From an uncultured Oceanisphaera sp. (lineage in GTDB: Bacteria > Pseudomonadota > Gammaproteobacteria > Enterobacterales > Aeromonadaceae): 64,000 nucleotides of DNA. The translations under genes were made by a program, and so were the position numbers. This document shows positions 29,354-59,670 of the stretch, piece after piece; the first letter of the stretch is position 1; the number at the start of each line of letters is the position of its first letter. The notes under the pieces were generated by a model. The model was given only the letters and a program-made list of their open reading frames with translations. It was not told where the DNA came from and ran no database searches. The stretch is taken from positions 1 to 64,000 of the forward strand of contig NZ_CANLZU010000003.1 of NCBI RefSeq assembly GCF_947495715.1, given 5' to 3'.

Positions 29354-29711
29354 TGATCTGCTTCGCTCGGAAAAGAGGCAACAAGATTGCCTCTTCTTTT
29401 ATACCGAGTTGCCTGCTGGCAGTAATAACAGGCAATGCCGGAGCATCAAGGAGGACAAAGGGATCTGCTACGCCGACCTTCTGTTTCAGGGATGAAACAG
29501 AGAGCCTACAAGGAGGTATTCATGGCGTGTCGGCGGAGCGGGCCCTTTGTCCTCCAGTCCCAACGTCATTCCTCCCCTCACCTGACATTTAGCGAAACAG
29601 ATCCCAAAAATGCCGGTCCGTCTTCGGCGAGATTGACCGGTATAAGGAAAGGTGGCTAGATAACGCTCAGCGGAAACAACAAGCTATAACAACTATACAG
29701 ATGAGGCAGAT
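29354..29711. other. argE-ppc spacer
   Basis: This 358-base spacer has no convincing gene. Its middle is repeat copy 1 (29450-29555). Short open frames crossing it follow the repeat, not a protein family. The last ~70 bases before ppc are AT-rich and should hold the ppc promoter, but no clear -35/-10 pair was found. Confidence 0.6.
29450..29555 (+). repeat. Two-hairpin intergenic element, copy 1
   Basis: The outer stem GGAGGACAAAGGG (29450-29462) pairs perfectly with CCCTTTGTCCTCC (29543-29555). GCCGAC and GTCGGC then pair inside it. Hairpin 1 is CTGTTTC, loop AGGGAT (29488-29493), GAAACAG. Hairpin 2 is GCC-TAC, loop AAGGAG (29510-29515), GTA, a five-base bulge TTCAT, then GGC. Orientation follows argE and ppc. 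Confidence 0.9.
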
Positions 29712-32348
29712 ATGGATAATCATGCGGCACTCAGGGCCAACGTCGGCCTGCTGGGACAACTGTTGGGCGATACCATCAAGGATCACCACGGCCAGGCCTT
29801 TCTCGACAAAATCGAAACCATTCGCCAGCTGGCCAAGTCGGCGCGCCAGGGTAACGACGAGGATCAGCAGCAGTTGCTGGATACCCTCAAGAACCTGAGC
29901 GACCACGAGCTGTTACCGGTGGCCCGCGCCTTCAGCCAGTTTCTCAACCTGGCCAACGTCGCCGAACAGTTTCACACCATCTCCCGGGAATATCAGCATA
30001 ACGCCGGTCCCAGCCCGCTCAGTCAGGTATTCGAACGACTGAAAACGGCCGAGGTGAACGAGGCCAGCATCAGGGAAGCCGTTGCCAGCCTGGATATCGA
30101 ACTGGTGCTGACTGCCCACCCCACCGAAGTGACCCGTCGAACCTTTATTCACAAGCACGTGCAGCTCAACGACTGCCTGGCGGCGCTGGAGCTGGATCTG
30201 CCCGAGCAGGAAAAAACCGAGCTACTGGCCCGGGTCGAGCAACTGATCACCCAGGCCTGGCACAGCAACGAAATCCGCGCCCAGCGGCCGACCCCGGTCG
30301 ACGAAGCCAAATGGGGCTTTGCGGTGATCGAAAACAGCCTCTGGCCCGCCCTGCCCAAATTCATGCGCCAGCTCGACGACCAGTTGCATGAGCAGCTGGG
30401 CGCGCGACTGCCGCTGGATGCCTCTCCGGTGCGCTTCGCCTCCTGGATGGGCGGCGATCGGGACGGCAACCCCTTCGTCACCGCCAAGGTGACCCGCGAG
30501 GTGTTACTGCTCGGCCGCTGGATGGCCAGCTCGCTGTTTCTCAACGACATTCAGGAACTGGTATCCGAGCTGTCGATGTCTCAGGCCAACGATGAACTCT
30601 ATCGTGCCGCCGATCAGAGCGACGAGCCCTACCGGGCCATACTGCGTACCCTGCGTGAAGATCTGCGCGAAACCCTGATGCACCTCAACGCCCGGGTACA
30701 GGGCCAGAGCACCGACGCCCGGGATCTGATCACCACCACAGAGCAACTGCGCCAGCCGCTGGAGCTGTGCTATCGCTCGCTGCAGGAATGCGGCCTCGGC
30801 AAAATCGCCGACGGCCTGTTGCTGGACGTGATCCGCAAGGTCGCCTGCTTCGGCATTCACCTGCTCAAGCTGGATGTGCGCCAGGACGGCGAACGCCACA
30901 CCCAGGCCCTGGCCGAAATCACCCGTTACCTCGGCCTCGGCGATTACGCCGACTGGAGCGAGGCCGACAAGCAGGCGTTTCTGCTCAACGAACTCAACTC
31001 CCGTCGCCCCCTATTGCCGCGACAAGGGCTGCCGGGCCAATGGCAGCCCAGTGCCGACACCAAGGAAGTACTGGATACCTGCAAGGTCATCGCCGACCAC
31101 CCGCAGGACGCCTTCGGCATTTACATCATCTCCATGGCCGGCGCGCCGTCCGATGTGCTGGCGGTACAACTGCTGCTGAAGGAATGCGGCGTCGACTTTC
31201 CGCTGCCGGTGGCACCGCTGTTTGAAACCCTGGACGATCTCAACAACGGCGCCGAAGTGATCGAGCAGCTGTATCATCTGCCCTGGTATCGCGGCTATCT
31301 GCAGGGTCGCCAGTTCGTGATGATTGGCTATTCCGACTCGGCCAAGGACGCGGGCATGATGGCCGCAGGCTGGGCCCAGTACAGCGCCATGGAAAAACTG
31401 GTCGGTATCAGCGCGCAGGAACAGATCAAGCTGACCCTGTTCCATGGCCGGGGCGGCAGCCTGGGTCGTGGCGGCGGCCCGGCCCGTCAGGCCATTCTGG
31501 CGCAGCCCCCGGGCTCGACCCTTGGCGGCCTGCGCGTTACCGAGCAGGGCGAAATGATTCGCTTCAAGTTCGGTCTGCCCAAGGTGGCCATCGACAGCCT
31601 GGCGCTCTATGCCAGCGCCGTGCTGGAGGCCAACCTGCTGCCGCCGCCCGAGCCCGAGCCCCGGTGGCGCGAGCTGATGGACACCATGGCCGAGGTCTCC
31701 TGTGCCCACTATCGGCGACTCATCCGTGACGAGCCGGATTTCGTGCCTTACTTCCGTGCCGCCACCCCCGAGCAGGAGCTGGGCAAGCTGCCGCTGGGCT
31801 CGCGCCCGGCCAAACGCAAACCCAATGGCGGGGTAGAAAGCCTGCGCGCCATTCCCTGGATTTTTGCCTGGACCCAGAACCGGCTGATGCTGCCCGCCTG
31901 GCTGGGCGCTCACAAGGGGCTGGAACAGGTGATTGCCAACGGCCAGGAAGACACCCTGATAGCGATGAACAAGCGCTGGCCCTTCTTCCGTGCGCGGCTG
32001 GACATGCTGGAAATGGTGTTTCTCAAAACCGATCCCAATCTGGCCGCCTACTACGACAGCGTACTGGTACCGGAAGCACTCAAACCGTTGGGCCGGCAAC
32101 TGCGCGACGAGCTGAAAGCCAGCATGGCGCTGATCCTGCAACTCAAGGAAGAAGCCGAGCTGCTGTCGGACCAACCCTGGATCAAGGAGTCCATCACCTT
32201 GCGCAACCCCTACACGGATCCGCTCAACGTGTTGCAGGCCGAGTTGCTCAAACGCTCGCGCCAGCAGGGAGAAATTCATCCGGTGCTGGATCAGGCTCTG
32301 ATGGTCACCATCGCCGGCATCGCCGCCGGCATGCGAAATACGGGATAA
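29712..32348 (+). CDS. ppc: Phosphoenolpyruvate carboxylase
   Basis: This 878-residue enzyme adds bicarbonate to PEP to make oxaloacetate, refilling the TCA cycle. The catalytic His lies in [12 protein letters not shown] near residue 138. The conserved [16 protein letters not shown] and the glycine-rich [14 protein letters not shown] loop are intact. The C-terminus ends RNTG, as required in the family for the active and aspartate-binding sites. It is single, with repeat elements on both sides. pckA, which runs the opposite conversion, lies 18 kb away. Confidence 0.98.
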
Positions 32349-32381
32349 ATCAGCTGTAAGAAGAGACATTCTGCACAGTCG

Positions 32382-32481
32382 AGTAAAGGGGTCACAACGC
32401 CGACACGCCACAAGCACCTCCATGTGGGCTCGAACATGCCATCCCTGGCATGTCACAGTCGGCTCTGTGATCCCCTTTACT
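32382..32481 (-). repeat. Two-hairpin intergenic element, copy 2 (reverse)
   Basis: The outer stem AGTAAAGGGG and CCCCTTTACT, continued by TCACA/TGTGA, closes the element at 32382-32481. Read on the minus strand, hairpin 1 is CATGCC, loop AGGGAT (32441-32446), GGCATG. Hairpin 2 is GCC-CAC, loop ATGGAG (32418-32423), GTG, five-base bulge CTTGT, GGC. It is inverted relative to ppc and ybaK. Confidence 0.88.
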
Positions 32482-32523
32482 TTCCTTCAGTTGCCCAGGC
32501 TGGGATGAATATCCCCAGCCCTC

Positions 32524-32550
32524 AATCCCCAATCCCCAATCCCCAATCCC
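32524..32550 (+). repeat. Tandem heptamer AATCCCC
   Basis: Nearly four copies of the 7-base unit AATCCCC lie 76 bases before ybaK. The count could vary by slippage. They are not in a coding sequence. Confidence 0.9.
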
Positions 32551-32625
32551 ATTTTCTTCCGGCTTATAGCTTACAGCTGTATTTATCTGCATAATTTTTC
32601 CTTCACTTATTCACCGGATTTCACC

Positions 32626-33087
32626 ATGACCCCTGCCATCCTGTTTCTGGAAAAACAAAAAGCCACCTTTACCCAACATCAATATGAATGCACGACCCTG
32701 GATGACTTTGGCGCCCATGCGGCCGAACAATTACAGGTGCCGCCGGAGCAGGTGTTCAAGACGCTGCTCACCGAAGGCGAACAGGGGCCGGTCGTGGCGC
32801 TGGTGCCCTCTTCCGGCAAGGTCAATCTCAAACGCCTGGCCAAGGCCGCCGGGGTGAAAAAGCTCGACATGATGCCGCCCGCCAAGGCGGAACGACTGAC
32901 CGGCTACAAGGTGGGTGGCATCAGCCCCTTCGCCCAGAAGAAACGGTTGCCAACAGTTCTGGACGCCTCGGCCAATAACTACCCTCAAATACTGGTGTCC
33001 GGCGGCAAGCGCGGGCTGTCGGTGGGCGTTGCCGCCGAGGTGGTGCAAAACCTGCTCGGCGCCGTGGTGGCCGACATCGCCGAGTGA
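32626..33087 (+). CDS. ybaK: Cys-tRNA(Pro) deacylase YbaK
   Basis: This 153-residue protein belongs to the YbaK/EbsC family, which clears cysteine misattached to tRNA-Pro. The conserved lysine lies in VFKTLL near residue 46, and the family segments TGYKVGGISPFAQKKRLP and SGGKRGLSVGV are present. The stop codon TGA is also the first three bases of a TGAGGCG tandem repeat. A second heptamer repeat lies upstream. Confidence 0.95.
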   Translation: MTPAILFLEKQKATFTQHQYECTTLDDFGAHAAEQLQVPPEQVFKTLLTEGEQGPVVALVPSSGKVNLKRLAKAAGVKKLDMMPPAKAERLTGYKVGGISPFAQKKRLPTVLDASANNYPQILVSGGKRGLSVGVAAEVVQNLLGAVVADIAE

Positions 33088-33133
33088 GGCGTGAGGCGTG
33101 AGGCGTGAGGCGTGAGGCGTGAGGCGTGAGGCG
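33085..33133 (+). repeat. Tandem heptamer TGAGGCG, seven copies
   Basis: Seven exact copies of TGAGGCG begin at the ybaK stop codon and end at 33133. Since the first copy supplies the stop, changes in copy number would not alter YbaK. It is too short and lacks spacers, so it is not a CRISPR. Confidence 0.95.
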
Positions 33134-33221
33134 TGAAGAATGATCGCCTTCCGTAGGAAGTCAGACATTTTTTCTGCTAGTTCTTGCGGCTAGTTGCCGA
33201 AAAACGCTACCATTCGCATCC

Positions 33222-33240
33222 GATAATACAAACGATTCTC
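33222..33240 (+). promoter_or_regulatory. Fur-box-like site before the imelysin cluster
   Basis: GATAATACAAACGATTCTC matches about 13 of 19 bases of the Fur consensus (GATAAT repeats). It lies 27 bases before the imelysin start. Fur control is known for imelysin/irpA-type clusters in other bacteria, so iron-responsive repression is a reasonable inference. Confidence 0.5.
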
Positions 33241-33266
33241 AAACGCATAGTCATAAGGATATCCGG

Positions 33267-34529
33267 ATGCCTTACCCCAAACTCGTGCTCGCCGCCACCA
33301 TCGGTGCCCTGCTGAGCGGTTGCGCCCAGACCAGTACCCCCGCGGTCAGCCAGAAACAAGTGGTCGAACACTATACCGACATCGCCCATGCGGTTTACGC
33401 CGACTCCCTGACGGCCGCCGAGAAGCTGGATGTGGCCATTCAGCAACTGCTGGCCAGCCCAGGCGAGCAAACCCTGGCTCAGGCGCGTACCGCCTGGAAA
33501 GCCGCCCGGGTGCCTTATCAGCAGTCCGAGGTGTTTCGTTTCGGCAACCCGGTGGTCGACGAGTGGGAAGGCCAGCTCAACGCCTGGCCGCTGGATGAAG
33601 GGCTGATCGACTATGTGGCCGCCGGCTATCAGCACGAGCTGGGCAACGACGGCGCCGCCGCCAATATCGTTGCCAACACGGCACTGCAGGTTGGTGGTGA
33701 GCAGCTGGATGTCGGCAACATCACCCCCGAGCTGCTGGCCGGCCTCAACGAACTGGCCGGCTCCGAAGCCAACGTGGCCTCCGGTTATCACGCCATCGAG
33801 TTTCTGCTCTGGGGCCAGGATCTGCACGGCACGAACGCCGGTGCCGGCGAGCGCCCCTACACCGACTATGCGTTGGGCGAAGACTGCACCAACGGCAACT
33901 GCGACCGCCGCCGGGATTACCTGCAGGCCGCCAGTCAGCTGCTGGTCAGTGATCTCGGCTGGATGAGCAGCCAGTGGCAAGCCGGCCAGAACGGCAACTA
34001 TCGCGCCGAACTGACCGCCCTGCCCGCCGAAGAAGGCCTGCGCCGCATGCTGTTCGGCATGGGCTCCCTGTCACTGGGCGAGCTGGCCGGTGAACGGATG
34101 AAGGTGGCACTGGTGGCCAACTCGGTGGAAGACGAGCACGACTGCTTCTCCGACAACACCCACCACTCTCATTATTACAACGAAAAAGGCATCGTTAATC
34201 TGATGTTCGGCGAGTACCAGCGCATCGACGGCAGCATACTGCAGGGCCCTTCGCTGCTGCAGCTGGTGGCACAGCAAGACAGCGATGCCGCCAAACAGAT
34301 TGGCGTTCAGATGCGCGAGAGCGAACAGGGGGTATACCAGCTGGTCGCATCTGCCGAACTCAATAATGTGCATTTTGATCAGCTGATTGCCGCCGACAAC
34401 CCGGCCGGTAACCAGCTGGTGCTGGATGCCATCGACGGCCTGGTCGAGCAGACCCGCGCTATCGAGCTGGCCGCCAACACCATCGGCATCAGCAACCTGA
34501 ATCCGGACACCGCCGATCACGAGTTCTGA
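33267..34529 (+). CDS. Imelysin (peptidase M75) family lipoprotein
   Basis: This 420-residue protein has a lipoprotein signal with the lipobox LLSGC near residues 14-18. The imelysin domain carries the family motif GYHAIEFLLWG (GxHxxE) near residue 174. Imelysin proteins (IrpA, IcmP) are envelope proteins linked to iron uptake; peptidase activity is uncertain for many members. It starts a plus-strand cluster of imelysin, DUF1111, imelysin and DUF1513 like PA4370-PA4373 of Pseudomonas, behind a Fur-box-like site. A 330-base gap with a repeat element separates it from the next gene. Confidence 0.85.
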   Translation: MPYPKLVLAATIGALLSGCAQTSTPAVSQKQVVEHYTDIAHAVYADSLTAAEKLDVAIQQLLASPGEQTLAQARTAWKAARVPYQQSEVFRFGNPVVDEWEGQLNAWPLDEGLIDYVAAGYQHELGNDGAAANIVANTALQVGGEQLDVGNITPELLAGLNELAGSEANVASGYHAIEFLLWGQDLHGTNAGAGERPYTDYALGEDCTNGNCDRRRDYLQAASQLLVSDLGWMSSQWQAGQNGNYRAELTALPAEEGLRRMLFGMGSLSLGELAGERMKVALVANSVEDEHDCFSDNTHHSHYYNEKGIVNLMFGEYQRIDGSILQGPSLLQLVAQQDSDAAKQIGVQMRESEQGVYQLVASAELNNVHFDQLIAADNPAGNQLVLDAIDGLVEQTRAIELAANTIGISNLNPDTADHEF

Positions 34530-34859
34530 GTTCACACACGAACGTCAATAACCCGTATCAATAACAATACAGCGGAAGGGCGGAGTCTCGGCACCGACAC
34601 CTTCCCGCCACGGCACACCTTGAGCATCAGACTGCAAACAGATCTTCAGGCAACGAATAACAGACGGCACCAGTGCCAGTAAAAGGCCAAAGGGATCTGC
34701 TCCGCCGACCTTCCGTTTCAGGGATGAAACGGAGAGCGTACACGGATGTATTCATCGCGTGTCGGCGGTGCTGACCTTTTGGCCGAGTGTTCGACATCCG
34801 CAAGACGACTCGTTCAATACTCTGAAGCCACAGATGTCCCCTTTTACTCTGGAGTCTCT
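34530..34859. other. Spacer inside the imelysin cluster
   Basis: This 330-base spacer interrupts an otherwise compact cluster. It contains repeat copy 3 (34685-34784) and no supported gene. An in-frame extension upstream of the next gene, starting inside the repeat, is rejected since the signal peptide begins at 34860. Confidence 0.65.
34685..34784 (+). repeat. Two-hairpin intergenic element, copy 3
   Basis: The outer stem GGCCAAAGG/CCTTTTGGCC (one mismatch or bulge) encloses GCCGAC/GTCGGC. Hairpin 1 is CCGTTTC, loop AGGGAT (34720-34725), GAAACGG. Hairpin 2 is GCG-TAC, loop ACGGAT (34742-34747), GTA, bulge TTCAT, CGC. Compared with copy 1 both stems change on both sides and keep pairing. GTACACGGATGT (34738-34749) matches 11 of 12 positions of the CsrA SELEX consensus RUACARGGAUGU. 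Confidence 0.9.
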
Positions 34860-36245
34860 ATGCTTTTTCGACTCGGCAGCTTGCTACTCGGCGCCACCCT
34901 GGCCCTGAATGCACAGGCCAACCCGGCCAAGCCCGGTGGCGACACCACCACCGACAAAACCGGTGCCAACGCCTATTCCATGCCCGCCGCCAACCTCAGC
35001 TTTCAAAAGCGACTGGATTTCTCGGTCGGCAACAGCTTCTTTCGCAACCCCTGGGTCACCGCGCCCGCCACCACCGATGCCCGTGATGGCCTGGGTCCAC
35101 TGTTCAATACCAACGCCTGTCAGAGCTGTCACGTCAAGGATGGCCGCGGCCACCCGCCGCAGTTTGCCGGTGACAACGCGGTCAGCATGCTGGTACGGCT
35201 GTCGATTCCGAGCGACGGCAGCCCCGAACAGCAGGCATGGTTGCGGGTGCATGGCGTAATCAACGAGCCCACCTATGGCGGCCAGCTGCAGGACATGGCC
35301 ATTCCCGGTGCTCACCCGGAGGGCAGGGTACAGATCGACTATCAGACCCATATCGTGAGCATGAAAGACGGCACCGAGGTGGAACTGCGTCAGCCACAAC
35401 TGACGGTGGCCGAGCCCGGCTACGGTACATTGCACCCGGATACCCTGTTCTCGTCCCGCATCGCCCCGCCCATGATTGGCCTGGGCCTGCTGGAAGCCAT
35501 CGATGAAACCGACCTGCTGGTGCGCGAAGATCCACAAGACAGCAACGGAGATGGCATCAGCGGCCGCGCCAACCGGGTGTGGGACATTGCCGCAGAGCAA
35601 ACTGTCATCGGTCGCTTCGGCTGGAAGGCGGGCCAGCCCAACCTGCGCCAGCAGGATGCCGGTGCCTTCGCCGGTGACATGGGGCTGAGCTCGTCGCTGT
35701 TTCCCGCCGACGATTGCGCTCCGGCGCAGGGCTGCGACCGGTATCCCGATGGTGGCCAAATTGAAGTCAGCGACGACATCATGGACTCGGTCACCTTCTA
35801 CAGCCAGCACCTGGCGGTGCCCGCCCGCCGTAATCTGGACCACCCCGACGTGGCCGCCGGCGAACAGCTGTTTCTGGCGCTGGGCTGCAGCGGTTGCCAT
35901 ACCCCTTCTTACACCACAGGCGAACATGACAGTGCCGCTCTGAGCCACCAGAAAATCTATCCCTATACCGATCTGCTGCTGCACGACATGGGCGAAGGCC
36001 TGGCCGACAACCGACCCGAGTTTCAGGCTAACGGTCAGGAATGGCGCACGCCGCCACTCTGGGGGCTGGGCTATGCCGGCGAAGTGGCCGGCAGCGATGC
36101 CTATTACCTGCACGATGGCCGTGCCCGTAGCCTGCTGGAGGCCATTCTCTGGCACGGTGGCGAAGCCGAGGCCGCCAAACAAAGCGTCATCGCCATGAGC
36201 AGTGAAGAACGCGCTCAGCTCATCGCCTTTCTGGAGTCCCTATGA
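34860..36245 (+). CDS. Di-heme oxidoreductase family protein (DUF1111)
   Basis: This 461-residue periplasmic cytochrome-like protein has a Sec signal (about residues 1-20) and two c-type heme sites, CQSCH near residue 84 and CSGCH near residue 344. The family is annotated as putative thiol oxidoreductase or di-heme oxidoreductase, with the exact reaction unknown. The ATG at 34860 has GGAG upstream and starts the signal peptide. The stop overlaps the next imelysin gene by 4 bases (ATGA), so it probably works with the two imelysins and the DUF1513 protein at the envelope, perhaps in redox handling of iron. Confidence 0.88.
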   Translation: MLFRLGSLLLGATLALNAQANPAKPGGDTTTDKTGANAYSMPAANLSFQKRLDFSVGNSFFRNPWVTAPATTDARDGLGPLFNTNACQSCHVKDGRGHPPQFAGDNAVSMLVRLSIPSDGSPEQQAWLRVHGVINEPTYGGQLQDMAIPGAHPEGRVQIDYQTHIVSMKDGTEVELRQPQLTVAEPGYGTLHPDTLFSSRIAPPMIGLGLLEAIDETDLLVREDPQDSNGDGISGRANRVWDIAAEQTVIGRFGWKAGQPNLRQQDAGAFAGDMGLSSSLFPADDCAPAQGCDRYPDGGQIEVSDDIMDSVTFYSQHLAVPARRNLDHPDVAAGEQLFLALGCSGCHTPSYTTGEHDSAALSHQKIYPYTDLLLHDMGEGLADNRPEFQANGQEWRTPPLWGLGYAGEVAGSDAYYLHDGRARSLLEAILWHGGEAEAAKQSVIAMSSEERAQLIAFLESL

Positions 36246-37288
36246 AAAAAACACTGTTGCTGCTCGCCACCCTTGGCACCCTGACCGCCTGTCAGAGTCA
36301 GCCACCGCTTGATCCGGCCCTGCAGACCCTGAGCGATCATCATCTGACCTTCATGCGCGCACAGGCCGACCGGCTGGCCGGCGAACTGCAGCAATTGCAA
36401 CAGGCCGGCAGCGATTATTGCCGGGCGTCATCGTCTGCCACCCAGAAAGATGCGCTGGCCGATCTCAAACAGCATTGGCGCCGCAGCTTTGCCACCTGGA
36501 GCGCCCATCAGGGTCAGAGCGGTGGTCCGCTGGATGCCGAAGGCCTGAGCTTTGCCTTTCAGTTCTGGCCCGACAAGAAAGACACCACCGGCAAGCAACT
36601 GCAACGCCAGCTGACCGCCGTCGAGCAGGGGCAGCCCGTGCGGCAACAAGGTGTCACCACCACCCTGGGCGCCATGGAATATCTGCTCGAAAACGACCTC
36701 ACGGCCCGGCAGCGCTGCCTGCTGCTACCCGGCATCGGTGCCGAGCTGGCGGCCAATGGCCAACGGCTGAGCACCGCCTGGCATGATGCCGACGGTTACC
36801 AGCAACAGCTGAACCGAATGCAGCAACAGGGTGGCAGTACCGCCCTGCTGACCCAGATACTGGGCCAGCTGTCTCATCGTTACGAGCGTATAGAAAAGAA
36901 GCTGGTGCTGCCGCTGAACACCGTCGAACACCCGCGGCCGCTGTTTGCCGAGGCCTGGCGCAGCGGTCAGTCGCTGCACTTTCTGCGCGCCAGCCTGCTG
37001 TCGCTGGAGCAGGAATACCGCCATGGCGGCATCCGCGCCTATCTGCAAGGTTCACAACAACCAGACTCGAGTCATGCCGCCGTTATCGCGGCGCTGGATC
37101 ATGCCTTTGCCGACACCCTCAAGCATCTGCCCGCAGGCGACAGCCTGGGCTACTGGCTGGAAGGGGATCGCTACGCCGCCCTGCTGCGCTTCAAGCTGTC
37201 GTTCGATCAACTGGGTTACCAGCTGAAACAGCGCCTGCCCGAAGAGCTGGGCCTGAACCTCGGCTTCAACGCCACGGACGGTGACTGA
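36242..37288 (+). CDS. Second imelysin-family lipoprotein, motif altered
   Basis: This 348-residue lipoprotein has the lipobox LTAC near residue 17 and overall imelysin-like helical sequence with the conserved W/F core. Where the first imelysin has GxHxxE, this protein reads TLGAMEYLL, keeping Glu but not His. If that motif binds metal in the family, this copy may have a structural role. It overlaps the DUF1111 gene and the DUF1513 gene (one base), so the three are translated together. Confidence 0.8.
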   Translation: MKKTLLLLATLGTLTACQSQPPLDPALQTLSDHHLTFMRAQADRLAGELQQLQQAGSDYCRASSSATQKDALADLKQHWRRSFATWSAHQGQSGGPLDAEGLSFAFQFWPDKKDTTGKQLQRQLTAVEQGQPVRQQGVTTTLGAMEYLLENDLTARQRCLLLPGIGAELAANGQRLSTAWHDADGYQQQLNRMQQQGGSTALLTQILGQLSHRYERIEKKLVLPLNTVEHPRPLFAEAWRSGQSLHFLRASLLSLEQEYRHGGIRAYLQGSQQPDSSHAAVIAALDHAFADTLKHLPAGDSLGYWLEGDRYAALLRFKLSFDQLGYQLKQRLPEELGLNLGFNATDGD

Positions 37289-38364: not shown

Positions 38365-38439
38365 CTATCATTAGGCTCTAGGGTCTTCGTTTGTCGGGGA
38401 CCCATGTTCACTCCTCATCATCGGCACAAGGAACATCAC

Positions 38440-38688
38440 ATGGGTATTTTAAGCTGGATTGTGTTTGGGTTACTGGCCGGCATGCTGGCCAAGTGGCTGA
38501 TGCCGGGCCGGGACGGCGGCGGTATCATCATGACCATGCTGCTGGGTATTGCCGGTGCCTTCGTCGGCGGCTGGATCGGCACCCGCCTCGGCTTCGGCTC
38601 GGTGACCGGCTTCAACCTCGGCAGCTTTTTCACCGCCATCATCGGCGCCCTGGCCCTGCTGTTCGTTTACCGACTGCTGAAAAAATAA
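38440..38688 (+). CDS. GlsB/YeaQ/YmgE family small membrane protein
   Basis: This 82-residue protein is nearly all hydrophobic, with three transmembrane segments and the family pattern MGILSWIVFGLLAGMLAKWLMPG. The family includes stress-induced proteins (YeaQ, YmgE, transglycosylase-associated GlsB) with unknown function. AAGGA precedes the ATG at 38440; a longer reading frame upstream is rejected. It stands alone, 75 bases after the DUF1513 gene. Confidence 0.88.
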   Translation: MGILSWIVFGLLAGMLAKWLMPGRDGGGIIMTMLLGIAGAFVGGWIGTRLGFGSVTGFNLGSFFTAIIGALALLFVYRLLKK

Positions 38689-38703
38689 CGATGGTTCGAG
38701 AAG

Positions 38704-38799
38704 TAACAGGGTTATCTCCACCGACCTTCTGTTTCAGGGATGAAACAGAGAGCATACAGGGAGTATCTACCGCGAGTCGGTGGGGCTGAACCCTTTGTC
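38704..38799 (+). repeat. Two-hairpin intergenic element, copy 4
   Basis: The outer stem is weaker here (ACAGGGTT with AACCC/TTTGT). CACCGAC pairs with GTCGGTG. Hairpin 1 is CTGTTTC, loop AGGGAT (38736-38741), GAAACAG. Hairpin 2 is GC-ATAC, loop AGGGA (38758-38762), GTAT, bulge CTACC, GC. The second hairpin again resembles the CsrA site consensus. Confidence 0.87.
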
Positions 38800-50332: not shown

Positions 50333-50355
50333 ATGGGGCATTGTGCCCCTTTTTA
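50333..50355 (+). terminator. Terminator after hslO
   Basis: GGGGCA (50335-50340), loop TTG and TGCCCC (50344-50349) form a stem followed by TTTTTA. An A-run precedes it, so it could work in both directions, but only hslO needs it. Confidence 0.85.
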
Positions 50356-50485
50356 GTTAATTTTCCGCTCAAAACTCTAAATTTTGACACTGATCCCCTA
50401 AATACCGCGCAATTCCTGCTAGTCTGCCGCGATTAATTATTCCAATAATCATGCTTACTCAACCCCTTCGTACCAGGAGATAACA

Positions 50486-52099: not shown

Positions 52100-52129
52100 T
52101 TACAGTGCGCGACAACAGGCAATAGCAGA

Positions 52130-52159
52130 GACCCCGGTTCAGGCCGGGGTCTTTTTTTT
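52130..52159 (+). terminator. Terminator after pckA
   Basis: GACCCCGG (52130-52137), loop TTCAGG and CCGGGGTC (52144-52151) form a perfect 8-base-pair stem followed by eight T bases. It is a textbook intrinsic terminator 31 bases past the pckA stop. Confidence 0.95.
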
Positions 52160-52240
52160 ACGTGCTTTTGCCATTCTGTGCGGTTTTATACCAATCTGGA
52201 AAACCAACTGATCTACTTGGCTTCACGGTAAAGGTCGAAC

Positions 52241-52384
52241 GAAGGGTCCATTCCACCGACACGCTGAACCGCATCCCTGCGACGCTCAGCACATGACGTC
52301 CGGCCGCCAAGGATGGCGGGAGTGTCAGCATTGCAGGAGCCTTTGTTGACCTGTCATGTGATGGTCGCTGGAGTAGAACCCTTC
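52241..52384 (-). repeat. Two-hairpin element, copy 5 (divergent, larger)
   Basis: The outer stem is GAAGGGT (52241-52247) with ACCCTTC (52378-52384); an inner CACATGAC (52290-52297) pairs with GTCATGTG (52353-52360). On the minus strand an arm reads CGC, loop AGGGAT, GCG and ends in GTGTCGGTGG, as in other copies. The second arm is CCGCC, AAGGAT, GGCGG read on plus. It is a rearranged or composite member. Confidence 0.65.
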
Positions 52385-52443
52385 ATCCTCCCTAATGCTG
52401 CAGAGTCGCCTGTGGAACGGCCTGCAGATAACTCGGTGCCAAA

Positions 52444-52553
52444 GAGAGGCAACAGAGAGCGGCTCCCGCGACCGTGAAATGCCAGGGATGGCATTTCCGA
52501 GCCCCCATGGATGGGTTTATGGCGTGTCATGGGAGGTGACTCTGTTTCCTCTC
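52444..52553 (+). repeat. Two-hairpin intergenic element, copy 6
   Basis: The outer stem GAGAGGCAACAGAG (52444-52457) pairs with CTCTGTTTCCTCTC (52540-52553) at 13 of 14 positions. Hairpin 1 is GAAATGCC, loop AGGGAT (52484-52489), GGCATTTC. Hairpin 2 is GCC-CCC, loop ATGGAT (52507-52512), GGG, bulge TTTAT, GGC. The architecture equals copies 1 to 3 although nearly all stem bases differ. Confidence 0.88.
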
Positions 52554-52596
52554 GTCTCCGGCTTTAAAACAGATCATATTTTTATTTAGATCGTTA

Positions 52597-55140
52597 TCAA
52601 TGCGCCAACAGCTGGTCGTTCCAGGCCAGCAGCCAGTCTTCGATCTGCTCGGCCGGCATCGGCAGAGAGATGCCATAACCCTGCACATACTGACACCCCA
52701 ACTGTTGCAAGCGCTCACCCTGAGCCGATACTTCCATGCCGTCCGCAATCACGCTCATTCTCAGCACCGCCGCCAGCTGAATCACGCTTTCCACCATGCC
52801 CGCATCATGCCCTTGCGACAGCAGGTCGCCGACAAAGCTGCGATCGATTTTCAGGGTGTCCACCGGCAACCGATTGAGGTGAGCAAGAGAAGAATACCCG
52901 GTGCCAAAGTTATCAAACAAAATGCTCAACCCCAGCAAACGACAACGTTCCAATACCGGAATCAAGCCATCTATGTCGGCCAGTACCGCCGCCTCCTGAA
53001 ACTCCAGCTCCAGCAACGAGGGCGACACCTGGGGGTAGCGGGCCAGCAGGCGGCCCAGTGCATCGATAAAGTCCGCATGCATCAACTGGCCGGTACTCAC
53101 ATTGAAACTGACTCTGAACTCCAGCCCCTGCGCCACCCAGGCGGTCATTTGCGCCAATACCCGCTCAATCACCCACAGCCCCACCTCGAATTCCAGCTCG
53201 CTGCCGATAATCAATGGCAGAAAGTCGGCGGGCGCCACTATGCCACGTTGCGGGTGACGCCAGCGTAGCAACGCCTCTACACCAATCATGCACTTGCTGA
53301 GCAGCTCGACCCGTGGTTGGTAATAAAGCAAAAACTCGTTCCGTTTGAAGGCGGCCGACAACAGGGCAAACTGCTGCTGCCGGTGATATTCCTGCTGATG
53401 CAGTTCGGCATCGAAGAACACATAGGTGTTCTTGCCCTGCTTTTTAGCCTGATACATGGCCTGATCCGCATAGCGCAGCAGAAGCTCCGCATCATCCGCA
53501 TCCTGAGGAGACAGCGCCACACCGATGCTGGCCGACACCCGCACCTGCTGACCATCCAGCTCCATCGGCTCATGGATCACCGCCAGTACCCGATCGAGAA
53601 TTTCATCACACTCCAGATCGTTGTGCAGTCCGGTAAACAACAGGGCAAACTCGTCCCCTCCCAGTCGGGCCAGGGCATCACAGCTACGGGTGATCTGACC
53701 CAGCCGCCGGCTGATTTCGATGAGCAGCCGATCACCGGCCGCGTGTCCCAGACTGTCATTGACCTGCTTGAAACCATCCAGATCCAGATAGCACACCGCC
53801 AGCCTGCCCTCGTTACGCCTGGCGCCGGCAATAGAGCGTTCCAGCAATTCGCCAAACAGCAGCCGGTTGGGGATCCTGGTCAGAGCATCGTGACAGGCCT
53901 GGTGCTTGAGCTCGGCTTCATGCTGCTTCAGATGGGTAATATCGGAAAAAATAATCACATGGTGCAACACCCGATCCGCATCGTCGCAGACCACCGACAC
54001 CGCCAGCAGCAGTGGATAGGACTCACCATTCTTGCGCCGGCTCCACAGTTCACCCTGCCAGTGTTCGCGGGCGTCGAGATGGCGGCACAGTTCGGCATAA
54101 AAATCGTCGTCATGATCCTGGGCTTGCAATAACTCCGGCGAGCCACCGATCACATCCTCGGGCAAATATCCGGTAATGCGGGTAAAGGCCGGATTGACAT
54201 GGGTAATACGGTTGTCGGCATCGGTCACCATGATGCCCTCATAGCTCGACTCGAACACACTGGTTGCCAGCCGCTGCTGGGCTTCAATGTCTTTCTGTGC
54301 GCTGATGTCCTGCCCCACGCAGAGCATGTGACCATTGGGCAGCATGATATTGGCCCACAGCATGGTCAGCACGTCTCCCTTTCGGTTCAAGGGCCGCCAT
54401 TCACGGAATACCGAGCTGTTGAGAGAGGTAAAAGTGGCGATCACCTGACGTCGCTGTTCGGGATCGGGATAAAAAAGATGCAGTGGCGCCGCGTGTTGTT
54501 TCAGCTCGTCAAAACTCCAGCCAAATATCCGCTCGCACTCATGATTCCATAGAATGCAGCGCCCTGCCGAGTCGAACCCGTTAATGGGGATGGGAACATG
54601 ATCAAACATGCCTTTTAGCCGGCTCAGAAAACGCCGGGACGAGCCTTCCCGCTTTCTCTGATGTGTATGTTGTTCCTGCTCGCGCCATAACATGGCGCCG
54701 TGGGTTGTCAGTATATCGAGGGTCTGACGTTGGGTTGGCGCAAGCCGAGGGGCTCTTGTCCGGTATTCGAGTAGCAGCAATCCTTCGAGTGACCCGCGCG
54801 ACGCGGGCACCGCCATGTAGCGCTCCGCGCCCGGGTCGGCCGCCGGAGGCACGGCGCAATAAAACCGCGCTTGCTGCCGGATAGCCAGATAATCCGCCGC
54901 CGCCCACTGCGATAATGGCGGCCATTGGCGACCCACTGCGAGTGAGGGCGAGCCATCGGCATTGAAGAATACAAACCAGGCGCGTTCGGCATCGGCACAC
55001 CTGGCTGCCAGGGCACACAACTCCGACCAATCGTCGCGCTTTTCGGTCTTGGCCCCCTCGGTCACTCCATCATCCTGACTGCCATAGCTTCGCATATCCA
55101 TGCTCATATTGATTACCGCTTTATCGAGCCAACAGACCAT
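52597..55140 (-). CDS. PAS-GGDEF-EAL cyclic-di-GMP signalling protein
   Basis: This 847-residue cytoplasmic protein has a GAF-like N-terminus, two PAS domains (about residues 170-270 and 285-400), a GGDEF domain (about 410-575) with intact GGDEF, and an EAL domain (about 585-840). The EAL motif itself (EALLRW) is present, but two conserved active-site segments are changed. DDFGTG reads DNFGTG (Asn744) and AEGVE reads ADGME (Asp800). Diguanylate cyclase activity is likely; phosphodiesterase activity may be weak or lost. No membrane segments were seen. The ATG at 55140 has AAAGGG upstream; ATG at 55107 is an alternative. Confidence 0.9.
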   Translation of the reverse strand: MVCWLDKAVINMSMDMRSYGSQDDGVTEGAKTEKRDDWSELCALAARCADAERAWFVFFNADGSPSLAVGRQWPPLSQWAAADYLAIRQQARFYCAVPPAADPGAERYMAVPASRGSLEGLLLLEYRTRAPRLAPTQRQTLDILTTHGAMLWREQEQHTHQRKREGSSRRFLSRLKGMFDHVPIPINGFDSAGRCILWNHECERIFGWSFDELKQHAAPLHLFYPDPEQRRQVIATFTSLNSSVFREWRPLNRKGDVLTMLWANIMLPNGHMLCVGQDISAQKDIEAQQRLATSVFESSYEGIMVTDADNRITHVNPAFTRITGYLPEDVIGGSPELLQAQDHDDDFYAELCRHLDAREHWQGELWSRRKNGESYPLLLAVSVVCDDADRVLHHVIIFSDITHLKQHEAELKHQACHDALTRIPNRLLFGELLERSIAGARRNEGRLAVCYLDLDGFKQVNDSLGHAAGDRLLIEISRRLGQITRSCDALARLGGDEFALLFTGLHNDLECDEILDRVLAVIHEPMELDGQQVRVSASIGVALSPQDADDAELLLRYADQAMYQAKKQGKNTYVFFDAELHQQEYHRQQQFALLSAAFKRNEFLLYYQPRVELLSKCMIGVEALLRWRHPQRGIVAPADFLPLIIGSELEFEVGLWVIERVLAQMTAWVAQGLEFRVSFNVSTGQLMHADFIDALGRLLARYPQVSPSLLELEFQEAAVLADIDGLIPVLERCRLLGLSILFDNFGTGYSSLAHLNRLPVDTLKIDRSFVGDLLSQGHDAGMVESVIQLAAVLRMSVIADGMEVSAQGERLQQLGCQYVQGYGISLPMPAEQIEDWLLAWNDQLLAH

Positions 55141-55220
55141 CAAACCCTTTCAATTAACCGTTCCCGGTGAATATCCGTCTATCGGCGATGATGAGACTAC
55201 TAATCATAGAACATCGCCAC

Positions 55221-56123
55221 TTATACCGCGGCCTGTGCAAGGGGATGCCACAACTCCTTTGCCACCTCGAAAAAACCCCTGGCCAATGGGCTGGCCTGAT
55301 CGTCGTTGCGCATCACCAGGGCTCCGATGCGGGCCATGGCGGGTAATACCAGCGGCCGACACTCTACCCCCGGCAACTCGGAAAAAAGCACGCTACCGGC
55401 CGGAATCAAGGCACAGCCCAGGCCGGCATGCACCGCCCGCATCAGCCGGTAAACCGAGTCGGACTCCAGCATCGGCTGCAGCCTGACGCCTTGCCGGGCA
55501 AATACCGTTTCCAGATAGCCGCGAAAATACATGCCCGCCTTGGGCAGGCACAGCGGCAAGGCCGCCAATTCCTGCAGTGTGGGCGCCGTCGACAGCCGCT
55601 CTCGCCATTCAGGCCCGCACGCCAGCACCACCCCCTGCTCCGGCAACGCCAGACTGTTCAGTTGCGCCAGGACCTCGGGTTCAAAAAAACCACCGCCAAT
55701 ATCCAGACGGTTCTTTTCCAGCCCCTGCACTATGGCATCGGCGGTCATGTCGTCAATCTCGAACCCCAGGCCGGGGTAGCGCTGCCGCAACCGCGCCAGC
55801 ACCGGACTCAGATCCATGCAACTCAGTGGCACCAGCCCCAGTCTTACCGTGCCGGTGAGACGCCCCTTCATCGCCTCCACCTCCAGTTTGAGGTTGTCAT
55901 AGTGGCTCAGCAGAGTGCGGGCCCGCTCCAGTACCCGTTCGCCTTCGGGCGTAAAACCCTCGAACTGCTTGCCCCGGCGCACCAGGGGCATCCCCAGCTC
56001 GCTTTCCAGCTGCTTGATGCGCATCGACAGCGTCGGCTGGGTAATGCAGCAGGCCCGGGCCGCCCGGCCGAAGTGCCGTTCCCGCTCCAGGGCACAGAGG
56101 TAGTAAAGCTGCTTGATGTCCAT
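55221..56123 (-). CDS. LysR-family regulator next to fdhD
   Basis: This 300-residue regulator has the N-terminal winged helix-turn-helix MDIKQLYYLCALERERHFGRAAR...TQPTLSMRIKQLESELG, and a periplasmic-binding-like effector domain from about residue 90. The start at 56123 is chosen by family length; an 11-codon longer frame exists. It is divergent from fdhD, with a T-N11-A palindrome between, so it probably controls fdhD and the YdeP-type gene. The effector is unknown. Confidence 0.9.
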   Translation of the reverse strand: MDIKQLYYLCALERERHFGRAARACCITQPTLSMRIKQLESELGMPLVRRGKQFEGFTPEGERVLERARTLLSHYDNLKLEVEAMKGRLTGTVRLGLVPLSCMDLSPVLARLRQRYPGLGFEIDDMTADAIVQGLEKNRLDIGGGFFEPEVLAQLNSLALPEQGVVLACGPEWRERLSTAPTLQELAALPLCLPKAGMYFRGYLETVFARQGVRLQPMLESDSVYRLMRAVHAGLGCALIPAGSVLFSELPGVECRPLVLPAMARIGALVMRNDDQASPLARGFFEVAKELWHPLAQAAV

Positions 56124-56194
56124 GATTAACCTGTCTGTTTTATTATTAAAAAACATGAATGAAGCAATAATTGATAGATTACCTATATCACAAT

Positions 56195-56209
56195 ATCGAA
56201 TCTTTCGAT
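56195..56209. promoter_or_regulatory. LysR operator candidate before fdhD
   Basis: ATCGAATCTTTCGAT is a perfect 6-base inverted repeat with a 3-base centre and fits the T-N11-A form of LysR-type operators. It lies 72 bases from the regulator start and 62 from fdhD, in the right place to control both. Confidence 0.5.
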
Positions 56210-56270
56210 TAGATCACGCTCCGGCCGCTCACTACACTGGCGTTAACTGCCTTTAACGAGTTCTGTGACC

Positions 56271-57074
56271 ATGTCCTTTTGCCAGCCCGATGCCCTGCCA
56301 GGTTATCAGTATGTGGCCACCACCGACGGTGAATCCCATGCCCTGGCCAGCGAGGTGCCGTTGGCTATTCTGCTCAACGGCATCAGCCACGCGGTGATGA
56401 TGGTCACCCCCTGCCAACTGGATGAATTCATCACCGGTTTTCTGGTCAGCGAAGGCGTCATCAAGCACTCACGAGAAATCCACGATCTGGAATTCCACCG
56501 GCAAGATCAGGCACTTGAAGCCCGCGTCACCCTGGGTAATGGCGCCCATTACCGCTGGAAAGAGCACCGCCGCAGCCTGGCCGGCCGTACCGGCTGTGGC
56601 CTGTGCGGCATCGAATCGCTGGCTCAGGCGCTGCCCGAGTTACCCCGTCTGCCTGCCGCACCGCTGCCGCCAGCATCCGCCCTCTTGCAACTCGGCCGGC
56701 AGTTGCCGGACTGGCAGCCACTGGGTCGGGAGTGTGGTGCCCTGCATGGGGCTTTTTTTGCCAGCCTGGACGGCCAGATTCTGCATGGCTGCGAAGACGT
56801 GGGCCGGCATAACGCCCTCGACAAACTCATTGGCACCCTGTTGCATCAGAAACCACCGCTCGCCGCCGGCATGGTGCTGATGACCAGCCGCTGCAGCATA
56901 GAGCTGGTGCAGAAAATGGCCCGCGCCGGGCTGTCTACTCTGGTCACCCTGGCCGCCCCCACCGAACTGGCGGTGCGCCAGGCCCGGCGAGCCGGCCTCA
57001 ACCTGCTGCATCTGTCGCGCCAACAGGGCCCGCGAGTTTATTCCACTTCAGAAACCGAGCCTCATCATGACTAG
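56271..57074 (+). CDS. fdhD: FdhD, sulfurtransferase for formate dehydrogenase
   Basis: This 267-residue protein passes sulfur from IscS to the molybdenum cofactor so that formate-dehydrogenase-type enzymes become active. The catalytic cysteine pair is seen in GRTGCGLCGIESL near residue 110, and the C-terminal core has GCEDVGRHNALDKLIG. The ATG at 56271 is preferred over a GTG 6 bases upstream. It overlaps the YdeP-type gene by 8 bases, so that enzyme is its probable client. Confidence 0.94.
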   Translation: MSFCQPDALPGYQYVATTDGESHALASEVPLAILLNGISHAVMMVTPCQLDEFITGFLVSEGVIKHSREIHDLEFHRQDQALEARVTLGNGAHYRWKEHRRSLAGRTGCGLCGIESLAQALPELPRLPAAPLPPASALLQLGRQLPDWQPLGRECGALHGAFFASLDGQILHGCEDVGRHNALDKLIGTLLHQKPPLAAGMVLMTSRCSIELVQKMARAGLSTLVTLAAPTELAVRQARRAGLNLLHLSRQQGPRVYSTSETEPHHD

Positions 57075-59367
57075 AAAAATCAAACCCTATCAGGGCCCGG
57101 CCGGCGGCTGGGGCGCCCTGTCTGCCACCACCCGTTTCGTGTTCGGCAGCAAGCAACCGGCAGCCAACATCCGCAATCTGCTCAGGGCCAATCAGGTCAA
57201 GGGCTTCGACTGCCCCGGCTGTGCCTGGGGCGACGAGCAGGGCAAGCATTTCTCCTTCTGCGAAAACGGCGCCAAGGCCATCAGCTGGGAAGCCACCACC
57301 AAACAGGTGACACCCGCCTTCTTTCGCGCCCACAGCGTCGGCAAGCTGCAGCGCCAGAGCGACTATTTTCTCGAGTATCAGGGCCGACTCGAACAGCCGA
57401 TGTACCTGAACCGGGAACGTGGTCACTATGAGCCCATCTCCTGGGAGAATGCCTTCGCGCTGATCGCCCGCCACCTCAACGGGCTGGATCACCCGGATCA
57501 GCTGGAGCTGTATACCTCGGGGCGGGCCAGCAACGAGGCCGCCTATCTGTATCAGTTGTTCGGTCGTTCCTTTGGCACCAACAATTTTCCCGACTGCTCC
57601 AACCTCTGCCACGAGGCCAGCGGCGTCGCCCTGACCCAGGCGATCGGGGTGGGCAAGGGCACAGTGACCCTGAGTGATTTTGAACGGGCCGACGCCATCC
57701 TGGTGTTCGGCCAGAACCCGGGCACCAATCATCCGCGCATGCTGCACAGCCTGCGCAATGCCGCCCGCAACGGCACCGCCATCGTCAGCTTCAACAACCT
57801 CAAGGAACGCGGGCTGGAGCGCTTTGCCGATCCGCAAAGCCCGCTGGAAATGCTGACCCCGAAAGACTCGCGTATCTCCAGCCACTATTTATGCCCGCGA
57901 CTGGGTGGCGACATGGCGGCGGTGCGCGGCATGGCCAAACTGGTGCTGGAATGGGACGCCGAGGCGCTGAGGCGAGGCAAGCCGGGGCTGCTTGACCGGG
58001 ACTTTATCGCGCAACACACTCACGGGCTGGAAGACTACATGGCGACGGTGGCCGACACCTCCTGGCAACAGATAGAAGCGCAATCGGGTCTTAGCCGGGC
58101 CGAACTGCGCCAGGCGGCCGAAGTTTACGCCGGTGCCGAGCGGGTGATCTGCACCTGGGCCATGGGCATTACCCAGCACAAGCATTCGGTGGCCACCATT
58201 CGGGAGATCACCAATCTGCAGCTGCTGCGCGGCCAGCTGGGCCGACCCGGTGCCGGTTTGTGCCCGGTGCGAGGCCACAGCAACGTGCAGGGCAACCGCA
58301 CCGTGGGGATAAATGAACAGCCCGACGCCGCCTTTCTCGACCGGCTGCAACAACACTTCCAACAGCCCATGCCTCGCCGGCCGGGTCATAATGCGGTCGC
58401 GGCCATTCAGGCCATGCTGGATGGCAAAGCCAGGGTATTTATTGCGCTGGGCGGCAACATCGCCGCCGCCGCCCCCGACACGCCCGCCACCGCCCGGGCA
58501 TTGGCCAATTGCACGCTGACGGTACAGATCAGCACCAAGCTCAACCGCAGCCATGTCATGGCCGGTAAAGAGGCGCTGATTTTGCCCTGCCTGGGCCGCA
58601 CCGAAGAAGATGTGCAGGCCAGTGGCCCCCAGTTCATTACGGTGGAAGACTCCTTCAGCATGGTGCACGCTTCTCAGGGCGTGGCCAACCCCAAGAGCCC
58701 GCACCAGCGCTCGGAAACCGCCATCATCGCCGGCATGGCTCAGGCAGTGCTGGGCAATAAACCGGTCGACTGGCAGGCGTTGGCCAACAATTACGATCTT
58801 ATCCGGGATCATATCGCCGCCACCCTGCCCGGCTTCGAGCAGTTCAATGAACGGCTGCAGCAACCCGGTGGCTTCTATCTGGGTAACAGCGCCGCCCGTT
58901 ATCAATGGCAAACCGGCAACGGCAAGGCCAACTTCGGTTCCGACCCGCTGCCTGCCAGCCTGATCCCGGAGGCCGTGACCGCCAAGGCCCAGGGCATGCT
59001 CTCAACCCTGCAGACCCTGCGTTCGCACGATCAGTACAACACCACCATCTACGGCATGGACGACCGTTACCGAGGCGTGTACGGCCAGCGCATGGTGCTC
59101 TTCATGCACCCGGACGAGATCAAGCGCCGCGGCCTGCAGGAGGGAGACTGGGTCGAGCTGATCGGCGTGTGGCTGGACGATGTCGAGCGCAAGGTCGGTG
59201 GCTTCAAGGTGGTGGCCTACGATATTCCGCCCGGCGACGTGGCGGCCTATTATCCGGAAACCAACCCCCTGGTGCCGCTACACAGCGTGGGCGACGGCAG
59301 TGATACACCCACTTCCAAGTCGATTCCGATACTGATCCGCAAGCAGGACGCACCGCGGATTATTTGA
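57067..59367 (+). CDS. FdhF/YdeP-family molybdopterin oxidoreductase
   Basis: This 766-residue enzyme belongs to the YdeP branch of molybdopterin oxidoreductases. An N-terminal Cys motif FDCPGCAWGD (near residue 48) with a further Cys after it may bind an Fe-S cluster. The usual Mo-ligand position carries Cys in NLCHEASGVAL near residue 185, not selenocysteine. The C-terminal domain is a molydopterin dinucleotide-binding fold. E. coli YdeP is linked to acid resistance, but the substrate of the family is unsettled. Overlap with fdhD implies a functional unit. Confidence 0.9.
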   Translation: MTRKIKPYQGPAGGWGALSATTRFVFGSKQPAANIRNLLRANQVKGFDCPGCAWGDEQGKHFSFCENGAKAISWEATTKQVTPAFFRAHSVGKLQRQSDYFLEYQGRLEQPMYLNRERGHYEPISWENAFALIARHLNGLDHPDQLELYTSGRASNEAAYLYQLFGRSFGTNNFPDCSNLCHEASGVALTQAIGVGKGTVTLSDFERADAILVFGQNPGTNHPRMLHSLRNAARNGTAIVSFNNLKERGLERFADPQSPLEMLTPKDSRISSHYLCPRLGGDMAAVRGMAKLVLEWDAEALRRGKPGLLDRDFIAQHTHGLEDYMATVADTSWQQIEAQSGLSRAELRQAAEVYAGAERVICTWAMGITQHKHSVATIREITNLQLLRGQLGRPGAGLCPVRGHSNVQGNRTVGINEQPDAAFLDRLQQHFQQPMPRRPGHNAVAAIQAMLDGKARVFIALGGNIAAAAPDTPATARALANCTLTVQISTKLNRSHVMAGKEALILPCLGRTEEDVQASGPQFITVEDSFSMVHASQGVANPKSPHQRSETAIIAGMAQAVLGNKPVDWQALANNYDLIRDHIAATLPGFEQFNERLQQPGGFYLGNSAARYQWQTGNGKANFGSDPLPASLIPEAVTAKAQGMLSTLQTLRSHDQYNTTIYGMDDRYRGVYGQRMVLFMHPDEIKRRGLQEGDWVELIGVWLDDVERKVGGFKVVAYDIPPGDVAAYYPETNPLVPLHSVGDGSDTPTSKSIPILIRKQDAPRII

Positions 59368-59405
59368 ACTACCATCCCGGTGCTTTCAGTCTTTGACTCA
59401 TCGGC

Positions 59406-59500
59406 CAAAGGGCCCGTTTCACCGACTCGCCGTAACCCCATCCCTGGGGGCTCCGCCGCGCCCTCCCTGGCGCGGAGGGTCGGCGAAGCAGATCCCTTTG
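59406..59500 (-). repeat. Two-hairpin intergenic element, copy 7 (reverse)
   Basis: The outer stem CAAAGGG (59406-59412) pairs with CCCTTTG (59494-59500). Read on minus, hairpin 1 is GCGCC, loop AGGGAG (59463-59468), GGCGC. Hairpin 2 is GCC-CCC, loop AGGGAT (59440-59445), GGG, bulge GTTAC, GGC. The order and five-base bulge match copies 1, 2, 3 and 6. It is inverted relative to the flanking genes. Confidence 0.87.
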
Positions 59501-59559
59501 TCCTCCTGCTACCTCGGTGCCACTAGTTGGCGCCACCTACCGGCAACTCGGCATTCAAA

Positions 59560-59670
59560 AAGAGGTAACAGAGACAGGCTCCCACGACCGTGAAATACCA
59601 AGGCCGGAAAATGCTCCTGCCGTTCCGGCATTCCCTCCCTCCCTGGCGGTCAGATGGCATTTCCGATCCC
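59560..59670 (+). repeat. Two-hairpin element, copy 8 (degenerate)
   Basis: The left half, AGAGGTAACAGAGACAGGCT then CCGTGAAAT, resembles copy 6 closely. The right half ends in ATGGCATTTCCG, also as in copy 6, but the centre is replaced by an unrelated GC-rich stretch. The inner hairpins are lost, so this looks like a decayed or invaded copy. Confidence 0.55.

Follow-up and report, generated by a model that had tools for sequence, protein, structure and literature searches.

Dispersed, mobile repeats with paired CsrA-type hairpin loops in an Oceanisphaera genome

The DNA stretch analysed here (the window; 64,000 nucleotides, positions 1 to 64,000 of contig NZ_CANLZU010000003.1) belongs to the 3.65 Mb draft genome of an uncultured Oceanisphaera sp. 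and contains seven copies of a repeat of about 100 bases, called the module below, in which an outer stem and a junction hold two hairpins. Six copies and this two-hairpin anatomy had been described from the letters of the window (the original prediction), and both descriptions are borne out, with module ends that differ by 0-5 bases from those given before. We aligned 26 diverse modules (four window modules among them) by MAFFT without structure (alignment A1), and built from them a covariance model with a hand-set structure (R1). R1 scores the six copies 65.7-96.8 bits (E 1e-17 to 3e-27 in a window search); its seed set included all of them except the 29454 and 34686 copies. The seventh module is 52238-52387 (-), the partner of 52449-52548. 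R1 also gives four more, weak matches (E 0.0017-0.12), which fall on the opposite strand of these modules. As the first module starts at 29454, the nos and ribosomal region of the window is module-free under R1, as had been claimed.

The first module (29454..29551, plus strand, 96.1 bits) has the loop AGGGAT in hairpin 1 (29488-29493) and AAGGAG in hairpin 2 (29510-29515). Beside it, at 29375..29441, lie the remnant of its partner, reduced to a bare outer stem (29375-29393), and a spacer hairpin (29404-29441), aligned with a locus of the related genome G009 (L145) that retains the full pair. The next module, at 32382..32481 (minus strand, 95.2 bits), has the loops AGGGAT and ATGGAG; a CCCCAAT-like short tandem run is located just past it, at about 32500-32590, and a similar run is present in Oceanimonas smirnovii. 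Two solo modules follow, one at 34686..34783 (plus strand, 96.8 bits, loops AGGGAT and ACGGAT) and one at 38702..38798 (plus strand, 65.7 bits), in which the hairpin 1 loop is AGGGAT and the hairpin 2 loop is one base short. A near-complete inverted-pair element spans 52187..52599 and consists of a left terminal repeat (52187-52213, beginning TATACCAATCTGG), module B (52238..52387, minus strand, 63.4 bits), a spacer hairpin (52403-52434), module A (52449..52548, plus strand, 96.5 bits, loops AGGGAT and ATGGAT) and a right tail (52569-52599) with a degenerate end. Module B has about 50 additional bases in its hairpin 1 loop and an intact hairpin 2 loop, AGGGAT. The last module (59404..59502, minus strand, 91.3 bits, loops AGGGAG and AGGGAT) is accompanied at 59515..59666 by a spacer hairpin (59515-59551) and a truncated partner module (59562-59666) with a hairpin 1 loop insertion.

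It had been proposed that the copies are selected to fold as a single strand, which is supported by pairing, covariation and nearest-neighbour contrasts. The sample consisted of 46 own-genome stretches and stretches from relatives; the window and the 46 stretches together gave 87 distinct modules (R1, E <= 1e-6). In A1, standard pairs fill 90.8% of the cells, against 36-46% with slid partners and a shuffle mean of 75.1%, and 22 of the 34 pairs show changes on both sides, with a covariation score of 0.420 against 0.150 when shuffled. The score is 0.433 (0.153 shuffled) for the own-genome copies and 0.800 (0.196 shuffled) for 31 distinct modules from other genera and families. Because shuffles ignore relatedness, we added disjoint nearest-neighbour contrasts, which remove most of the phylogeny and from which pairs closer than 2% were left out. 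Compensatory changes number 53 within the own genome (43 contrasts), 35 within the genus (23 contrasts) and 89 among distant modules (15 contrasts), against 4.8, 2.5 and 9.1 expected with permuted partners. One-sided pair-breaking changes number 66, 34 and 34, below the permuted values of 106.9, 60.3 and 85.4, so stem decay is lowered, yet present. A1 was aligned without structure, whereas alignments A2 to A4 were fitted to R1 and their pair counts are biased toward the model; the counts also include one opposite-strand match in A4 (L181, minus) and one weak match in A2 (L228 822-933, E 0.007).

In both hairpins the invariant columns of A1 read C-A-n-G-G-A-n-G, namely a six-base ANGGAN loop closed by C-G. 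The loops AGGGAT and AGGGAG of the original prediction are indeed seen, but the rule is broader, and 12 of the 14 hairpin loops of the seven window modules follow C-ANGGAN-G. In the own copies, column diversity lies between 0 and 0.024 for the C, A, G, G, A and G columns, while it reaches 0.62/0.66 at N2 and 0.36/0.56 at N6. Among six-base loops of the 87 own modules, C-ANGGAN-G is found in 78 of 79 for hairpin 1 and 79 of 79 for hairpin 2; the corresponding counts are 44 of 45 in each hairpin for 47 distinct same-genus rows, and 29 of 30 and 30 of 30 for the 31 distinct modules of other genera or families. As background, ANGGAN occurs in 2 of the 708 window hairpins outside the elements that have a six-base loop, C-G closure and a stem of at least 4 pairs. 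The wobble pairs are also asymmetric, with G-U to A-C ratios of 85:21 (own), 32:11 (genus) and 46:12 (distant), an excess expected if the ANGGA strand is the folding strand.

The own loops of other lengths comprise eight in hairpin 1 (five of 54-56 bases and three of five bases) and eight in hairpin 2 (three of 81-90 bases and five of three to seven bases). Module B often has big insertions in its hairpin loops, for example in 52238-52387 and 59562-59666 of the window and in L025, L033 and L034, and the hairpin 1 insertion of module B can fold as a C-ANGGAN-G hairpin on the other strand.

Structural work has described CsrA/RsmE sites as ANGGAN hexaloops with C-G closure. In the two-loop modules listed, the loop starts stand 22-25 bases apart, a spacing at which the two sites could pair on one CsrA dimer. 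The CsrA consensus is given in an excerpt of PMC4347634 as RUACARGGAUGU, with GGA located in hairpin loops, and hairpin 2 of L017, GTACAGGGATGT, is a complete match to it. Comparison among the copies shows the predicted fold and its CsrA-type loops, and CsrA would likely recognise the modules.

The family is larger than the original prediction had it. A blastn search of the own genome with the 29450 copy gave at least 42 matches at E <= 0.001 (best 40 of 190 candidates scored), and R1 matched 67 of 67 in an own-genome scan of at least 67 candidates. Since 11-150 candidates were scored per genome in the family searches, each copy number is a minimum; extrapolating the density in the window (7 per 64 kb) gives about 400 modules per genome. 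Tens of genome matches with covariation had been predicted, and the 87 distinct own modules with covariation far over the shuffles provide them. That the genome holds recent segmental duplications only is ruled out, as the median pairwise identity among the 87 modules is 66% and 0.7% of the pairs exceed 95%. R1 matches were found in 36 of 61 genomes: the own one, 22 of 22 of the same genus, 8 of 14 of the same family and 5 of 24 of the same order. The best-segment identity of the host phosphoenolpyruvate carboxylase (gene ppc) is 90% to Zobellella iuensis, 89% to Z. taiwanensis, 85% to Oceanimonas and 71-73% to Aeromonas, which would place the host in Aeromonadaceae near Zobellella and Oceanimonas.

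Most copies sit within a larger element, an inverted pair that has terminal repeats of its own. The 56 own elements comprise 30 opposite-strand pairs, 25 single modules and one tandem pair, and all 30 opposite-strand pairs are head to head, with their 5' ends facing; several apparent singles have a partner masked by loop insertions. The spacer between the modules has a hairpin of its own, the tails outside the modules end in ATTGGTAT (65 genome matches to the tail pattern, 0 for a reversed control), and TACCAA terminal inverted repeats bound the elements. Counting only clusters with both ends recognised, we collected 26 complete elements, 360-545 bp long, of which 16 are own and 10 come from relatives. 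A TNA trinucleotide is present at both ends, with the same middle base in 23 of 26, the three without identical TNA being kept. The inner A on the left and the inner T on the right belong to the search pattern, so the test bears on the outer T and the outer A, each present in 26 of 26, and on the middle base. With terminal inverted repeats, a target duplication and a length too short for a transposase gene, the element is an ERIC-like miniature inverted-repeat transposable element (MITE) of about 360-550 bp.

Orthologous spacers had been suggested as a source of precise presence or absence; they gave the presence/absence differences, but not exact junctions, as the spacers have diverged. Of the 14 genomes aligned across the ppc-upstream spacer, where the 29454 module lies, two have it filled (the window's own and G009) and 12 have it empty, and a seed-profile scan of 26 ppc loci found modules in the same two. 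At two further window sites the gap between flank matches is shorter in Oceanimonas, 305 bp versus 36 bp (the 34686 module, against two Oceanimonas) and 270 versus 101 bp. The relative G001 has an element at a site that is empty in the window, and the flanks of L165 and L167 resemble the end and spacer of another element copy. The duplications and the presence/absence differences show that the element moves or has moved. As for a parental autonomous transposon, no end pair 1-3 kb apart was found among the matches listed, and among transposase families only Y1 was searched.

Ends and modules also occur apart from each other. Within the order, the ends (pattern TNATACCAATCNNANTAANNNNNTGATC) are found in 56 of 295 genomes and 10 of 99 genera, a count that includes the own genus (control 0). 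Two elements from other families (L177 1501-1663 and L178 1363-1528; 163 and 166 bp) have TNA-TACCAAT ends and no modules, and R1 finds no match in the same-genus loci L173-L175, which have such ends. Judged by their ends, the short module-free elements are a wider ERIC-like MITE group in the order. Among the 20 module loci of other genera or families, none has both ends around its modules; isolated seven-base end matches lie 10 bases from the module in L216 and about 100 bases away in L222. From ends without modules and modules without ends, it appears that in this clade a widespread dual-loop RNA module became joined to an ERIC-like carrier. Distant modules are head to head in L214, L220, L221 and L223. 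With intact loops, one module is located on a Shewanella aestuarii plasmid and a head-to-head pair on an Enterobacter chuandaensis plasmid. The full element had no match in plasmids and phages, and the 29450 copy none in plasmids. A same-family module matched 1 plasmid and 0 phages, and the plasmid matches that distant-module queries gave in Pantoea, Vibrio, Citrobacter, Klebsiella, Escherichia and Shigella were short or weak; the Enterobacter pair had no match in E. coli genomes. Viral contigs gave 3 pattern matches (R1 55.7, 21.8 and 17.2 bits), the best being L241 6210-6299 (-), on an IMG/VR contig.

To locate the elements relative to genes, we used gene calls from a hexamer script, in which open reading frames mostly within an element, like any overlap of 60 bases or less, were ignored. 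The 56 own elements, found by similarity and not by random draw, lie between convergent genes in 23 cases and co-directional genes in 31, never between divergent genes, and 2 do not have both neighbours called; the 58 neighbouring gene pairs of the window are 4 convergent, 49 co-directional and 5 divergent. Elements and called genes overlap by 60 bases at most; the 34686 module shares 37 bases with the start of one called gene. The host has a single csrA, a gene present in 60 of the 61 genomes (58 above cut-off), including all 36 module carriers. It also has two csrB-like genes above the Rfam cut-off and a third match below. Both above-cut-off genes have an element on the 3' side: L157 1389-1679 (minus), with an element at 1001-1364, and L018 2020-2327, with an element whose module ends at 1602. 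The distance is about 25 bases in one case and a few hundred in the other. Given six element sites in the 64 kb window, this adjacency is suggestive, though noticed post hoc.

Several known systems resemble the modules in part. CsrB/CsrC and RsmX/Y/Z (RF00018 and relatives) titrate CsrA with repeated GGA hairpin loops, as the modules may do, but they are dedicated genes with many sites per RNA, whereas the modules have two sites each, many dispersed copies and a conserved junction. Neither the window (at the gathering score) nor any of ten loci (at E up to 10) matched RF00018, and the host csrB-like loci lie separately. TwoAYGGAY (RF01731) and the reverse strand of Bacillaceae-1 (RF01690) are described, in an excerpt of PMC4333381, as proposed CsrA binders with two CsrA-motif matches each. 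They are like the modules in having two CsrA-type sites per RNA but, unlike them, are not described in that excerpt as mobile or as inverted-pair repeats, and cmscan matched neither family in the whole window at the gathering score or in the ten loci at E up to 10. At the gathering score, Rfam finds in the window only an alpha-operon ribosomal protein leader (10679-10786, minus strand, 83 bits). Apart from genuine 5S and tRNA, the search of the ten loci (E up to 10) placed Ysr224 on modules at 4 places (E 0.4-2.1, below gathering score), mir-1910 on the L048 spacer (E 0.0084; 30.4 bits, where the gathering score is 70) and other matches off the elements and below gathering score, all of which were taken as chance.

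Among repeats, REP and BIME sequences are palindromic, intergenic and often in inverted pairs, like the element here, but they have 20-40 base hairpins tied to RAYT transposases, and no RAYT was found beside the present repeats. ERIC/IRU elements, according to excerpts of PMC10969869 and PMC2229807, have TA-ended terminal inverted repeats and a target duplication, reach copy numbers of up to hundreds, mostly between genes, and give structured transcripts. As far as those excerpts go, the element here shares the terminal inverted repeats, the target duplication and the intergenic copies, but ERIC is a 127 bp single palindrome, while this element has about 360-550 bp, two structured modules and a 3-bp TNA duplication. 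Its ends resemble the ERIC consensus, which we take to start TATACC, and we know of no CsrA-type loops in ERIC. Judged by title and abstract opening, none of the papers listed in searches of open-licence PMC concerns CsrA sites in repeats.

On the whole, these repeats are probably a mobile, dispersed family of dual CsrA-site RNAs that act as distributed CsrA decoys or local regulators at mRNA ends. Each module of about 100 bases would form a structured RNA in which a shared junction holds two CsrA/RsmA binding hairpins. It would be transcribed within mRNA ends and intergenic RNA, and one CsrA dimer would clamp both of its loops. Since each strand of a pair has one module, read-through from either side would expose one dual site. 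With less certainty, bound CsrA might have a local effect on host-transcript stability or termination, and the numerous copies might jointly titrate CsrA, as a distributed counterpart of CsrB.

Several observations weigh against this interpretation. The exact loop is missing from hairpin 1 in 9 and from hairpin 2 in 8 of the 87 own modules, through insertions, short indels and one base change. The junction strings GACC, GAGC and GCGnGTC are near-invariant in the own copies, as conserved as the loops, so something beyond CsrA is needed as an explanation. R1 includes loop information and the distant loci were chosen from its listed matches, which somewhat favours intact loops there, and the G-U excess could equally suit single-stranded DNA. 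Orientation shows no clear sense bias: the sense to antisense ratio of single modules is 19:14 on 3' sides and 10:6 on 5' sides, and in head-to-head pairs read-through reaches the antisense module before the sense one. The arrangement varies in other genera, with L222 tail to tail and L213, L226 and L232 in tandem. Moreover, no R1 match was found in 1.59 Mb of 80 named ppc-surrounding stretches, four of them from Zobellella/Oceanimonas, or in 5 same-family g4 genomes in which csrA is present, so hosts manage without the module family; two same-genus genomes, G012 and G018, have just 2 and 3 matches.

The conserved junction strings, which go past the known CsrA requirement, also speak for a different RNA role, such as RNase III or RNase E processing, protection of mRNA ends or another RNA-binding protein, served by the ANGGAN loops. 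The location of elements at 3' ends and between genes would suit such a role, and ERIC and Correia MITEs are reported, in excerpts of PMC10969869 and PMC2229807, to change mRNA decay. However, processing sites have no need of the C-ANGGAN-G rule, and the twin loops agree with CsrA at each conserved and each free position. We know of no other protein with a twin C-ANGGAN-G loop rule and regard this role as unlikely.

Slightly more unlikely still is that a transposase reads the hairpins as single-stranded DNA, in the way of REP and RAYT, with loops conserved for mobility rather than for RNA. The unit is mobile-like, its palindromic arms in inverted pairs recall REP pairs, and the genome has a Y1-type transposase gene. 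But the strong Y1 match is an IS605-type TnpA/TnpB pair (L037 238-1881) without a module alongside, and on this ground a RAYT/REP origin was rejected; a second Y1 match is weak. Terminal repeats with TNA duplications suit a DDE-type cut, unlike REP hairpin processing; the module loci of other genera or families have both ends in 0 of 20 cases, while end-bearing elements without modules exist, and the free N2 and N6 fit a CsrA site. Neutral MITEs whose palindromes are kept perfect by arm-to-arm copying in replication, without RNA selection, are disfavoured as very improbable, for although hairpin loss and loop insertions are seen and quasi-palindrome correction, known in principle, would yield paired changes, they fail to predict loops that are invariant but for two free positions, the excess of G-U over A-C or identical loops on replaced stems in other families.

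Returning to the dual CsrA-site RNAs, a bolder version seems possible to us, but we hold it only tentatively. The element may be a bacterial counterpart of short interspersed elements (SINEs), in which a two-CsrA-site RNA fold, widespread in Gammaproteobacteria, was captured by an ERIC-like element and multiplied until the copies numbered roughly in the hundreds, often with one dual site per strand; transposition would then rewire the Csr network one copy at a time, and those copies that are transcribed would form a genome-wide CsrA sponge beside CsrB. CsrA activity is thought to depend mainly on few dedicated RNAs. If a mobile repeat adds many sites in ordinary transcripts, transposition could tune the free CsrA pool and many genes. 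The function of bacterial MITE RNAs would then gain a testable answer with a named protein partner, and mobile DNA may be distributing sites for a central regulator.

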